The translations under genes were made by a program, and so were the position numbers. From the NCBI RefSeq assembly GCF_000022485.1, contig NC_012623.1:620001-684000 (forward strand): a stretch of 64,000 nt of DNA, given 5' to 3'. The notes below the pieces were generated by a model, which saw only the letters and a program-made list of their open reading frames with translations, made no database searches and was not told where the DNA came from. Position 1 is the first letter of the stretch. Each line of letters begins with the position of its first letter. Source of the DNA: Sulfolobus islandicus Y.N.15.51. GTDB lineage: Archaea > Thermoproteota > Thermoprotei_A > Sulfolobales > Sulfolobaceae. This document shows, in pieces, positions 20,253-26,316 of the stretch.

Positions 20253-20870
20253 ATGAGATCGAAATTAATGTTCATTAACGATATAGAAAAATTAGCCAAA
20301 AGAGTAGAAGAATCGTATGGAGGGGTAGAACTAGATGATATAATACAAAGATTAATAAATTTTTATGAATTAGGATTTACAAATATTAACCACTCTAGTA
20401 TTCAACTAATATTGTCTGCTTACTTTAAGAGTCTAGGCTACAGAGTATTCGTAGAATATGAGAGGAAGGGAAGACTACTCGATCTTTACGTTAGTGATGA
20501 AGATATGGGAATTGAAGTAGAATATGGATATATACCTAATTCAAATGCCATAGATGCTGAGGAGTACCTAAAAAGTAGAATTTCGTTGAAAATTTTGAGG
20601 TATAGTACTCTATCCTCGAAATTCTATATTGCAGTGCCATCCTTTTATATACCCCCCATCCCTGATGAATTAATAGTTGATATAAAAGATAAGACAAAAC
20701 TAAGGAGAATACTTGAACTAATTGGAAAATTTCATAAGACTAATGATATAATGTTGAATGATGCCAAATTGGCTAAAATTAATGGTATAATATCTGTAGA
20801 TGTTAGCAACTTAAGTATAAGTATAATCGATATTAGTAAGTATAAACAGCTAAAAGACTTTTATAAATAG
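20253..20870 (+). CDS. Hypothetical protein with possible PD-(D/E)XK nuclease fold
   Basis: A 205-residue protein. The segment [38 protein letters not shown] (about residues 50-87) has the alpha-beta-beta spacing of restriction-endonuclease-like folds: a helix, then E...D...E-x-E. The usual lysine after the second acid is missing (EVEYG), so catalysis is uncertain. It starts 13 bp after the C/D sRNA, which may lie in its 5' leader. The 3' end overlaps the convergent membrane-protein gene by 21 bp. No family is firmly recognised. Confidence 0.6.
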
Positions 20871-21497
20871 ATAAAGAACTAGGAACGACAAAAATGGCAC
20901 CGAAATATTGTCATCAATATACGGTAAGACTTCAGCAATTGTGGCAATAATCCCAGCTATTAAACCGGGTATATTCAGTAGATAATAACCAACTACTGTG
21001 CAGAATATTAACATCCCTAATGATCCCCAAAACCCCTTAACTCTTCTCTTATACACAAAATTTCTTATTATTCCGGTTATACCATCCCCGAAAGACATGA
21101 AAATTAAGGGGAGAATAGCAACGTAAATCAGACTTGCATTAGTCCAATAATTATGATCTAACAAGAACATCAACAAAAGAATTGTTCCGAAGGAGAATGC
21201 AAAGAATACCTCACCTAGATTTTCTCTATCCATAAACCATCTCATCTCCTTTCTTAGTACTCTTATGGCTATTAAGTACACCATAAGGAGATAAGATGTG
21301 ACTATTGGTACTAATGGAGAGTTAAAAACGTATGGAGATAGTACTGCAACAATGCCTCCTCCTAACATATGTATCGCCTTTCTGCTTACATAGGCTCCGA
21401 ATATTTGTGAAATCAGTTTAGAGATATACAGAACAACAATAACTACCCAGAGACTTAATACTATTCCCCAAGTGACATCATTAATAGTAAATAACAT
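20850..21497 (-). CDS. Dolichol kinase / phosphatidate cytidylyltransferase-like membrane protein
   Basis: A 215-residue polytopic protein with about seven transmembrane helices. [18 protein letters not shown] near residue 38 and [13 protein letters not shown] near residue 133, followed by [13 protein letters not shown], match the SEC59/VTE5 family that uses CTP to phosphorylate polyprenols or related lipids. In Sulfolobus it could recycle dolichol for N-glycosylation or phosphorylate another isoprenoid alcohol. Its start is 53 bp from the divergent nuclease-like gene. Confidence 0.75.
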
Positions 21498-21550
21498 CCA
21501 TAAAAATAGGCGATGAAACCTTATAAAAATTAATCCATAATAATCAAATT

Positions 21551-22168
21551 ATGCAATTATACAGATACTCGTTTAAGGACGGATATTTAGTTCCAGATGA
21601 AAATGGCGACGTTACAGTATTCGTGGAAGGAAATTTAATCTCAATAGTTGATAAAAACGGCAATAAGATAGAAGGTGTTAGATTTAAGTATTTGGGTAAC
21701 GAATCTGTCTCCCTGAAGAAACTTCGGTATTTGGCTAAATTTGTTAACATAGAGGTAAACGAAGATGTTCTTATGGTTTACCCTACATTAAGACAAAGAA
21801 CTCTTGCCATAAACAAGCTTATGGGCGAAGTATTTGAAGTGTTCATCCATAATCTCTTAATATCGAAAAATTATAGGGTAAAAAGACAAAACGAAATCTA
21901 TCCTTCGCTCCATAATTTCACTCTTACTAGATGGCATAATAGGCCAGACTTTATAATAGAAGATAAAGTTGTGATTGAGGCTAAGATACGCAAAAATGAT
22001 TATCTCCAGACTCTAGAATATTCTAAATATTTCAAGTATGGCATGGTGGTATTTCCATTTACTGGAGAGTGTAGAGTACCTAAAGGTTGGATTTGCGTAT
22101 TTCATACGATAAAGGATCAGTCTAGATTCTACTCTCTTCTTGAAAATTTATTATCTAGAGTTAAGTAG
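21551..22168 (+). CDS. PD-(D/E)XK nuclease-like protein
   Basis: A 205-residue protein. Near residue 137 the sequence [19 protein letters not shown] gives the complete PD...ExK motif, with a preceding helix containing E ([12 protein letters not shown]) as in RecB/Hjc-type nucleases. The first 80 residues form a beta-rich N-terminal domain. It likely cleaves nucleic acid in repair, but the substrate is unknown. The next gene, purT, starts 7 bp downstream and is probably co-transcribed. Confidence 0.75.
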
Positions 22169-22175
22169 TTGGTAT

Positions 22176-23369
22176 ATGGAAATTGGGACTCCCTTATTTG
22201 AGGGTTCAAAGAAGATTCTTCTACTTGGGAGTGGAGAGTTAGGAAAGGAAATGGCTATTGAGGCACAAAGAATGGGGTTAGAAGTTATTACTGTGGATAG
22301 ATATGATTTAGCTCCTGCAATGCATGTCGCACATAGAAAGTACGTAATAGATATGATGAACCCAAACGCTGTTAAGGCAGTTGTGAAAAGGGAAAATCCG
22401 GATGCAATTATAGCCGAAATAGAGGCAATTAATACTGATGCACTAGTTGATCTTGAAAGCAATGGTTTTAGAGTAATTCCTAATGCAAATGCAGTGAAGG
22501 CATGCATGAATAGAATTGAATTGAGGAGGTTTGCTACGGAAAAACTAGCCCTTCCAACTACAAAGTACGCATTTGCAGAAAATGAAGAAGAGGCAAAACA
22601 TGCTTGCAAGGATATAGGTTTTCCTTGCTTAATTAAACCAGAGATGAGCTCTAGTGGTCATGGCCATGTACTAGTTAATAAGATTGATGACGTGGAAGAA
22701 GCTTATAGGGAGTCAGTATCTCATGCTAGAGGTAAGGGTAGAAGAGTTATAGTAGAAGAGTTCGTAAAGATAGATACTGAGTTAACAGTATTAACGTATA
22801 GATACTATTCGAATTCTGGTAGCATAATAACTAAGACTATAGAACCGATAGAACATAAAAGGCCAAGTTACTATTATGTTGAATCTTGGCACCCTTCTAC
22901 AGTAAGTCGAGAAGTGAAAGAGACTGCTAGGGGAATTGCGCAAAAAGTTGTAGAGGAATTAGGAGGTTTAGGGATATATGGTGTTGAGATAATAGTAAGC
23001 GGAAATAGGATTCTCTTTAGCGAAGTAGCACCTAGACCACATGATACTGGATTAGTTACATTAGCTAGTAGTGATATAAACGAATTTCAAATTCATGTTA
23101 GAAGCGCAATAGGTCTACCAATTCCAGAAGTTAAGTTAGTCTCTCCAGCGGCTTCTCATGTAATTTTAGCACAAACTGAAAATGTTTGGGGACCTAAATT
23201 TATTAACGTGGAGAAGGCAATGGAGATCCCAGGAGTGCAAGTTAGGTTGTTCGGAAAACCTGTTACATATGAAAAGAGAAGGATGGGTATAGTGCTGGCA
23301 ACTGGAAATAGTGTAGAAGAAGCAATAGAAAAGGTCAGAAAGGCGTCATCAATAATATTAGTTAAATGA
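22176..23369 (+). CDS. purT: Formate-dependent phosphoribosylglycinamide formyltransferase PurT
   Basis: An ATP-grasp enzyme of purine synthesis that makes formyl-GAR from GAR, formate and ATP. I take ATG 22176 ([10 protein letters not shown]), not an earlier in-frame ATG inside the upstream gene, giving 397 residues, the usual family length. [18 protein letters not shown] is the GAR-binding loop, [13 protein letters not shown] lies in the ATP-grasp lid, and [16 protein letters not shown] is the PurT signature near residue 275. It ends in a 12-bp overlap with the convergent deacetylase-family gene. Confidence 0.93.
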
Positions 23370-24413
23370 ATGTATCTTCTTTATTCGATCGATAGTGCTT
23401 CTTATTTTCTCCATAACAAACTGTGATGATTTAGTAGAGAAGGGATCATGGAGAGTTTCATACTCTAAGTCGTATATTCCCGCAATCTCAGCTATTGAAA
23501 TTGTCCAAATTCTAGCAGTCGCATCATAGTTATATCCACCTCCTCCCAACATTATAAGCCTACCACTGGAGTACTTATGGGCTAGATGATGGACCTTTGT
23601 TACCACATCTAAATAACCATGGGTGGATAATTTTAACTCAACTAAAGGATCGTTAAAATATGAATCACCGCCCGTTATGAGGATAATAAGCTCTGGTTTA
23701 TATCTTTCTATAACGGGGATTACTATCTCGTCAAATGCTAAAAGATAACCATCATCTCCAGTACCAGGTGGTAGAGGAATATTAATAGTATAACCTTCTC
23801 CTTTTCCTACTCCAATCTCGTTCACATCCCCGCTACCCGGGAAGAAGTTAGGATGAAACATATGCAGGGAAATTTTCAAAACCTTATCATCATCAATTAA
23901 TAGTTCTTGTGTACCATCAGCATGATGACCATCTATATCAACTATTGCTATTTTTGAAAAGGAATTCTCACCTAATTTTGCTATGAGAGCAACATCGTTA
24001 AATACACAGAAACCAGCAGCTCTATTTCTCTTTGCGTGATGAAAACCCCCACCAATATTGATCGCGTGGTTAAACTCCCCACCCTTTATTAATTCTAATG
24101 CCTTTACACTACCACTTATCCTTATTAATGCAGCCTCATATATACCCTTAAATGCAGGAGTATCTCCATCATCTAAATATCCTTGACCTTCCTTGCTCTT
24201 ATATTTTACAAATTCTATATATTCTTTGGAGTGGACTAACTGAAGAACCTCTTCTGATATCGGCTTAGGTTCAATCAATGTGATGAAATGAAACGCACTT
24301 CTTTCTTCCAGCAATCTCTTAGTCATACTTTCTCTTAATGATTTAAATGGATGATAGTCTGGGAAGGAGTAGTTATAGTATTCATCTGTCCATATAAAAG
24401 CCGTTTTATGCAA
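23358..24413 (-). CDS. Histone deacetylase superfamily protein, AcuC-like
   Basis: A 351-residue zinc hydrolase, the second deacetylase-family gene of the window. It has [22 protein letters not shown] near residue 120, [16 protein letters not shown] near residue 153 (Asp and His zinc ligands) and [17 protein letters not shown] near residue 246. This resembles AcuC-type proteins more than the paralogue at 3180. It may reverse protein lysine acetylation, for example of acetyl-CoA synthetase or chromatin proteins, but no partner gene is adjacent. Confidence 0.88.
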
Positions 24414-24460: not shown

Positions 24461-25603
24461 ATGATAGATAGCACACTCATCACAAAGCCACAATATATTG
24501 CACATAGTATGGATAAATTGAGTGATATTATTTCTAAGATGAAAGAGAACAAAATGTGGACCGTACCCGTTATTAAGGATAGAAAATTATTAGGTTTAAT
24601 CTCTTATAAGGATCTTCTTTCTAGAAGGGTGAGTTTAGAGACTAAAGCGATAAATGTTATGAATCCCAGTGTTACCGTACAAATTGATGAGGATATTAAT
24701 AGATTAATTGCAAAATTTTACACTACCAAGGCAAGAGTGATACCAGTAGTAAATGAGAAGAAGGAATTTATTGGATTTGTAACAAGAGAGTCATTACTCT
24801 CATACTTATTGAAAGCTGATGAAATCCCAGAAAATAAAACTGCAAGGGAATACATGACCTCTCCAGCAACAACTATAGATGAAAATGACTCTATAGCTAG
24901 GGCTAGATGGGTAATGATAAGAGATAATATAAGCAGATTACCAGCTACTAAAGAGTATAGACTAACTGGAATCATAAGTGCAAGAGATATAGTTGATGCT
25001 TTGTATAGTGTAAGTGGAAGGAAAAGAGAGTCGATAATGAAAGATGAGGAAAGAGTTATGGCAATGCCAGTTAAAGAAATTATGAAGTACCCAGTCATAA
25101 CAGCTAATGGAAAGGAACCGTTACCAGATGTAGTAGAAAAATTACTTAAATTTAGAATTTCTGGAATGCCTGTTATGGAAGGTGATAGGTTAAGTGGCGT
25201 AATAAGTGGGCTAGATATTATTAAGGCAGTAGCTGAAAAAATGCAACTATCAATACCAATTGAAGCTAAAATACCTCAAGAGCTAAAATCGAACCTTGAT
25301 TTTAAGGCAAACATAGATGATATACTTGAAAGATATTTGAGCAAAATAGAAAGACTAACAGAAGTTATAAACTTTAAAGTATCGTTCAAGGAAGAAATGA
25401 GGAGTAGCGTAGGAAATAAAAAACTATATACTGCAATGGTAAGAGTAACTACTAAAATAGGCGATTATGTAGCTAAAGATACAGATTGGGAACCAATAGT
25501 TGCGTTAAAGAACGCTGTGGAAAAGATAGAGGAAAGAATATTAAGAAAACTAAGAAAAATAGAAGAGAGTAACAAAAAAGGAATTAAGGCAGAAGAGGCT
25601 TGA
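24461..25603 (+). CDS. Four-CBS-domain protein with HPF/RaiA-like C-terminal domain
   Basis: A 380-residue protein. Four CBS motifs occupy about residues 5-60, 65-120, 125-180 and 200-260, forming two Bateman modules that usually bind adenine nucleotides. The last 110 residues differ: the segment INFKVSFKEEM, then LYTAMVRVTTKIGDYVAKD, then DTDWEPIVALKNAVEKIEER has the beta-alpha-beta-beta-beta-alpha order and the final helix pattern of ribosome hibernation factors (HPF/RaiA/S30AE). I infer an energy-sensing ribosome-binding protein; other CBS fusions are possible. The stop overlaps the TTG start of the nitrilase gene by 4 bp. Confidence 0.75.
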   Translation: MIDSTLITKPQYIAHSMDKLSDIISKMKENKMWTVPVIKDRKLLGLISYKDLLSRRVSLETKAINVMNPSVTVQIDEDINRLIAKFYTTKARVIPVVNEKKEFIGFVTRESLLSYLLKADEIPENKTAREYMTSPATTIDENDSIARARWVMIRDNISRLPATKEYRLTGIISARDIVDALYSVSGRKRESIMKDEERVMAMPVKEIMKYPVITANGKEPLPDVVEKLLKFRISGMPVMEGDRLSGVISGLDIIKAVAEKMQLSIPIEAKIPQELKSNLDFKANIDDILERYLSKIERLTEVINFKVSFKEEMRSSVGNKKLYTAMVRVTTKIGDYVAKDTDWEPIVALKNAVEKIEERILRKLRKIEESNKKGIKAEEA

Positions 25604-26316
25604 AAATTGGAGTAATACAACCCTTAGAAGTTAAGTCAGCAATTTTATTAGTTGAAAAGGCACTAAAGGAGGGAGCAGAGCTAGTATTATTACCAGAAAA
25701 ATGGACAAAAAATATAGATGACGTACCATTAGTTGAATTTCAGAAATTGGCTAAAAGATACACTGCTTATATTTTACCTGGGGCATTTGAAGATGGAGTA
25801 TCGGTAATTACTCCAATAATTGACGATAGTGGAAACCTAAAAGGAATAGCAAAGAAGATTCATCTATTTAATGAAGAAAAATTGAGACTTATTCCAGGTA
25901 ATGAAGCCGTTCTCTTTACTTATAGAGGGATAAGGTTCGGAATTTTAATATGTTATGATATAGACTTTCCTGAAGTAGCCAGAGAATTGTTTTCTAAAGG
26001 AGTCGAGATAATTTTGGTACCCTCCAAAGTAAGAGGCAATGGTCTAGATATTTGGAATGAATTCCTTAGAATAAGAGTCTTAGAAAATAGGATAGGAATA
26101 GTAAACGCAAATGTCTATAATCCACCAGATTTCCCTGGAAGGAGCGTGGCAATTGTTCCAGAACAGAGACAAGACGGGATTGTGATACCCAAAGTAGTAG
26201 GAGTATTAGGAAGTGAAGAAGGCTATATGATAGTTGATATAGATCCCTTAAAATATATGTATCTAAGAGGAGATAGGCTAAAGGAATATGTTAAATTTAC
26301 GGTTAAAGAGCTATGA
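25600..26316 (+). CDS. Carbon-nitrogen hydrolase (nitrilase superfamily)
   Basis: A 238-residue amidase-type enzyme with the full triad: LLPEKW (Glu, near residue 31), KKIHLF (Lys, near 88) and ILICYDIDFPEVAREL (Cys, near 117). Members hydrolyse omega-amides, carbamoyl-amines or deaminated glutathione; the substrate here is not determined. The TTG start lies inside the upstream CBS gene stop (4-bp overlap), implying coupled translation. The 3' end overlaps the convergent gene by 6 bp. Confidence 0.88.
   Translation: MKIGVIQPLEVKSAILLVEKALKEGAELVLLPEKWTKNIDDVPLVEFQKLAKRYTAYILPGAFEDGVSVITPIIDDSGNLKGIAKKIHLFNEEKLRLIPGNEAVLFTYRGIRFGILICYDIDFPEVARELFSKGVEIILVPSKVRGNGLDIWNEFLRIRVLENRIGIVNANVYNPPDFPGRSVAIVPEQRQDGIVIPKVVGVLGSEEGYMIVDIDPLKYMYLRGDRLKEYVKFTVKEL

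Follow-up and report, generated by a model that had tools for sequence, protein, structure and literature searches.

The preliminary description of a 64,000-nucleotide stretch of the Sulfolobus islandicus Y.N.15.51 genome (hereafter the window) pointed to an open reading frame in which four CBS domains would be fused to a ribosome hibernation factor-like domain and whose stop would overlap the start of a nitrilase gene. The locus raises the question of whether this protein (P0001) is a ribosome hibernation factor, of a known or of a new kind, and of what the overlapping gene (encoding P0002) could contribute. Its features are the following, in positions of the window:

23358..24413, minus strand: histone-deacetylase-family protein, 351 aa (Pfam E 2.2e-82), divergent from hibA
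24461..25603, plus strand: P0001, predicted HibA ortholog with four CBS domains and a C-terminal HPF/RaiA domain, 380 aa, ATG start (Pfam, profile, fold model, Foldseek)
24470..24814, plus strand: CBS1-CBS2, the first Bateman pair, about aa 4-118, ribose-type Asp not conserved
24842..25006, plus strand: CBS3, aa 128-182, motif G170-x-x-S173-x-x-D176, Asp in 31/31
25007..25066, plus strand: CBS3-CBS4 loop, aa 183-202, aligning with the PTC loop of P. abyssi HibA (190-207)
25067..25243, plus strand: CBS4, aa 203-261, motif G246-x-x-S249-x-x-D252, Asp in 31/31
25250..25600, plus strand: HPF/RaiA (S30AE) domain, aa 264-380, predicted strand-helix-strand-strand-strand-helix (Pfam, models, profile, Foldseek)
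25600..25603, plus strand: 4-nt TTGA overlap of the HibA stop (TGA, 25601-25603) with the nitrilase start (TTG, 25600-25602)
25600..26316, plus strand: P0002, C-N hydrolase of the nitrilase superfamily, 238 aa, TTG start (Pfam CN_hydrolase E 3.4e-15)

The pair of open reading frames is not a chance occurrence, since all 31 Sulfolobaceae genomes have kept both genes and the dN/dS of these genes within the genus is low, about 0.03-0.09 wherever computable (one distant nitrilase comparison was saturated), which corresponds to purifying selection.

Relationship of P0001 to HibA

Four CBS stretches were recovered in P0001 with Pfam (E 1.6e-40), together forming one four-CBS module. The names proposed by NCBIfam (PrdR, IMPDH, and others) were discarded as CBS cross-matches far below cut-off. 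In the whole protein, Ribosomal_S30AE matched aa 278-367 with E 9.7e-5 and a score slightly below the curated cut-off (23.5 versus 23.7 bits), as might be expected if the C-terminal 110 residues were an unrelated fold mimicking HPF merely in the order of helices and strands. However, the cut-off was exceeded when aa 261-380 were searched alone (27.7 bits, E 4.6e-6), as it was by most of the relatives found.

The AlphaFold model of P0001, built from the 31-sequence alignment (mean pLDDT 84), displayed at its C-terminus the order E-H-E-E-E-H, which is that of HPF, and the main order was unchanged when this domain was modelled alone (pLDDT 81). The fold search with the full-length model listed 50 matches with no HPF entry among them, but AMPK-gamma-like CBS proteins together with SriD and Dri, because the CBS part dominates the score; the C-terminal domain was thus searched alone. 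Its top 32 Foldseek matches in the PDB were all bacterial or organellar HPF, RaiA or protein Y. A single C-terminal sequence recovered only HibA with phmmer (E 0.015), which was resolved by using a profile: 26 PDB sequences were then obtained at E <= 1, 24 of them being HPF, RaiA/YfiA or archaeal CBS-HPF-type (HibA) chains. The Foldseek and profile matches contradict the unrelated fold, to which we give practically no credence. The preliminary description had placed an HPF/RaiA-like domain in the last ~110 residues and proposed a comparison of aa 265-380 with S30AE/HPF; the significant Pfam match, the profile and Foldseek all agree with it, and neither a lack of HPF similarity nor another fold emerged for this part of the protein.

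The domain thus shares both fold and sequence profile with the bacterial HPF, RaiA and protein Y, although the bacterial HPF/RaiA proteins lack the CBS module that P0001 carries, and the published archaeal HPF/RaiA domain has two extra insertions compared to them. The same combination of four CBS domains and a C-terminal HPF/RaiA domain defines HibA, reported in Nature Communications in April 2026 and present in 47% of archaeal genomes (PMC13324472). HibA corresponds to Pab0961 in Pyrococcus abyssi (PDB 9SR9 series), to TK1186 in T. kodakarensis and apparently to HVO_2384 in Haloferax.

The best PDB match of the full-length profile of 31 sequences was chain 9sr9_H (profile positions 3-364 to 6-376, E 6.7e-40), a 392-aa protein deposited under the name "Dehydrogenase". 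We took this chain to be P. abyssi HibA since its length fits and since the HibA paper cites 9SRE, whose chain sequence is identical. The homology to the founding member therefore covers the full length, with a low sequence identity between P0001 and P. abyssi HibA. Further similarities between the two are the domain order, the length (380 versus 392 aa), the domain topology, the CBS3-CBS4 loop, which has a basic start and an invariant EE in P0001, and one predicted adenylate site at CBS3/CBS4. Given this domain make-up and the P. abyssi factor as best match of the profile, P0001 is, as judged from sequences and models, the Sulfolobaceae ortholog of HibA and not a new kind of factor. The suggestion that it could "belong to or extend" the group of CBS-containing hibernation factors thus holds for its first half.

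Other ribosome-bound archaeal CBS modules, Dri of Pyrobaculum calidifontis (9E6Q/9E7F) and SriA-D of Methanosarcina acetivorans (9ZNF/9ZNG/9ZNI), matched the CBS part of P0001 strongly in sequence and fold. Dri has been described as a pair of CBS modules lacking HPF, whereas P0001 has a single four-CBS module and an S30AE domain (Pfam), which excludes its assignment to Dri.

HibA was detected in all 31 Sulfolobaceae genomes, representing 11 genera (the family label comes from those relatives that have named records, Metallosphaera and others), and in 53 of 197 genomes overall (E <= 1e-20), including some other families of the order. The S30AE family was present in the control genome of Sulfolobus acidocaldarius. 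Elsewhere in Thermoproteota, several CBS-module homologues were grouped close to HPF-type genes (L110:5295-7164 and L109:4923-8786), an arrangement resembling the CM gene clusters of PMC13324472.

Predicted mode of action and adenylate site

On the P. abyssi 70S ribosome, HibA has its C-terminal domain in the 30S mRNA/tRNA channel and its CBS module in three positions on the 50S subunit; the P. abyssi protein inhibits in vitro translation, and in T. barophilus a hibA deletion results in later regrowth and in about 60% fewer 70S ribosomes in stationary phase (PMC13324472). Our functional statements on P0001 are transferred from these two species, and we infer for Sulfolobus ribosome binding, adenylate control, co-translation and the role of the enzyme. 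With a probability of roughly 0.87, P0001 would be a HibA-type ribosome hibernation (silencing) factor. When growth stops, its HPF/RaiA domain would enter the 30S mRNA/tRNA channel while the four-CBS module would cover the vacant tRNA sites of the 50S subunit and its CBS3-CBS4 loop would extend to the peptidyl-transferase centre; translation would be blocked and the 70S ribosomes protected. With a HibA gene now defined in the crenarchaeal family to which the genetically tractable Sulfolobus/Saccharolobus models belong, hibernation by HibA becomes testable outside Thermococcales.

P0001 had initially been credited with two adenine-nucleotide-type Bateman modules. We examined 31 HibA proteins of the order for the G-x-x-[ST]-x-x-D ligand motif. 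The motif Asp was present in all of them at both CBS3 and CBS4, whereas it was erratic in the first pair (17/31 at CBS1, 4/31 at CBS2), so that only the second of the two modules retained the proposed character. Since the Asp is kept only in this pair, one adenylate site is predicted, at CBS3/CBS4. This pattern agrees with P. abyssi HibA, for which a single site was measured, with ATP and AMP observed at CBS3/CBS4 in a 1:1 stoichiometry and AMP preferred (Kd 12 uM; PMC13324472). The site probably tunes the availability or release of P0001. Energy sensing by P0001 is something that we infer, because AMP and ATP had no clear effect on the binding of P. abyssi HibA to the ribosome (PMC13324472).

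The overlapping nitrilase gene and the facing deacetylase-family gene

The overlap of the HibA stop with the start of a C-N hydrolase gene, already noticed in the preliminary description, is the 4-nt TTGA listed above, and a 4-nt overlap was found in 30 of the 31 Sulfolobaceae genomes (TTGA in 29, GTGA in one), the junction being TAAATG in the remaining genome. A nitrilase gene lies directly 3' of hibA in all 31, counting a diverged pair in genome G163. A Shine-Dalgarno-like GAGG precedes the TTG in some loci, with variable spacing; GA-rich codons are likely there in any case, given the Glu-rich C-terminus of HibA. The pairing of HibA with a nitrilase is the remaining new element of this locus, and it is conserved across Sulfolobaceae. 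Our literature search on a CBS/nitrilase operon in Sulfolobus, which covered mainly open-access published papers, returned nothing relevant.

The putative catalytic residues of P0002 (E33, K86, E93, and C118), assigned from the known nitrilase pattern, were invariant in 30 of the 31 genomes. P0002 thus resembles other members of the nitrilase superfamily (the amidases 3HKX/5NY2, PH0642 1J31, and the nitrilase 3IVZ) in its CN_hydrolase profile and Glu-Lys-Glu-Cys set, but differs from them in being short (238 aa) and far under every NCBIfam equivalog cut-off: none of the nitrilase equivalogs was reached, the best score being 54 bits versus 500. A nitrilase-superfamily amidase that is catalytically complete, as judged by these residues, would be produced from the hibA transcript, probably through translational coupling at the TTGA, and thus be made alongside HibA. 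Our tentative reading, which we hold at somewhat less than even odds, is that this enzyme performs a clean-up of small-molecule amides or nitriles, or a nitrogen-release step, under the same non-growth conditions.

The intact catalytic residues in 30/31 genomes are also those of an ordinary metabolic enzyme, and the pairing is restricted to Sulfolobaceae in our sample, as would be the case if the nitrilase were a passenger, i.e., an unrelated housekeeping amidase merely sharing a promoter with HibA. We nevertheless find this rather unlikely, because the 4-nt overlap is kept in nearly all 11 genera and the pair persists where the surrounding genes are lost. In Sulfolobales archaeon HS-7 (G167), the surrounding genes differ but the hibA-nitrilase pair is kept.

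This adjacency in 31/31 genomes even with other neighbours changed, together with the conserved overlap at a weak start, would also suit a direct partnership, in which the nitrilase would bind HibA and sequester, stabilise or release it, or the CBS module of HibA would regulate the enzyme by adenylate, the two forming one regulatory unit. However, no homologue of the nitrilase or of the deacetylase was detectable around the roughly 25 distinct HibA loci sampled in other Thermoproteota families (usually about 5 kb of DNA on each side, shorter on some contigs), and HibA can thus do without a nitrilase of this kind nearby. We consider such a partnership unlikely, although genome G163, described below, brings a further argument in its favor.

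P0001 thus differs from the other HibA loci checked in being coupled to a nitrilase gene and facing a histone-deacetylase-family gene. In the window the starts of hibA and of the latter are 47 bp apart, and the divergent gene is found in 30 of the 31 Sulfolobaceae loci. This arrangement, as well as the occurrence of AcuB among the matches of the CBS module and the finding that HVO_2384, the HibA homologue of Haloferax, co-purified with a Pat2 acetyltransferase variant (PMC12607858), could suggest that P0001 is a CBS-based regulator of neighbouring enzymes (for instance AcuB-like beside an AcuC-like deacetylase) and not a ribosome factor. We regard this as very improbable: the C-terminal domain belongs with HPF/RaiA/HibA by both sequence and fold, the full-length profile matches the ribosome-bound HibA chain, and HibA is retained in other families of the order with neither the nitrilase nor the deacetylase as a neighbour.

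Retaining HibA as the preferred identity of P0001, the co-purification of HVO_2384 with the Pat2 variant and the deacetylase-family gene facing hibA provide a lead, in that HibA may be linked to acetylation. What controls the binding and release of HibA is left as a question in the HibA paper (PMC13324472), and the conserved nitrilase overlap and the divergent deacetylase-family gene offer two candidate partners for this regulation.

The upstream neighbourhood conserved in Sulfolobaceae (window 20850-23369) also encodes a multi-pass membrane-like protein that has no Pfam match, a PD-(D/E)XK-like nuclease (sub-threshold in Pfam) and a PurT-type ATP-grasp enzyme.

A diverged pair in genome G163

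G163 could be taken for a genome devoid of the pair. We rejected this assignment since the genome encodes HibA twice. The normal HibA (L048:5142-6296), which shares 44-51% identity with those of other Sulfolobaceae, is located at an unrelated site, and the canonical locus next to the deacetylase gene carries a strongly diverged version that is TTGA-coupled to a nitrilase homologue (L049:3681-5503, G163:C1). The diverged HibA has kept its CBS and S30AE domains (S30AE 1.6e-5) and forms a very long branch in the tree, such that its exact placement is unsure. The nitrilase next to it has lost all four catalytic residues, with K, M, D, and G replacing E33, K86, E93, and C118.

The joint divergence of the two genes with both open reading frames retained suggests a shared function, perhaps a non-catalytic one. 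Loss of the catalytic residues while the gene and its overlap are kept suits the direct partnership discussed above, but the pair may also be explained by simple decay after duplication. The G163 copy without catalytic residues also hints that catalysis could be dispensable in a broader arrangement, which we consider doubtful: a three-gene unit made of HibA, a co-translated nitrilase-family protein binding or regulating it, and a facing deacetylase-family enzyme that may control the acetylation of HibA. If true, this unit would link the energy and nitrogen state of the cell to ribosome dormancy.

Beside the relocated normal HibA of G163 (L048:3744-4962), we observed a stand-alone 275-aa CBS protein and, after it, a short protein that appears RidA-like by eye; the former could belong to a CM family described in the HibA paper.
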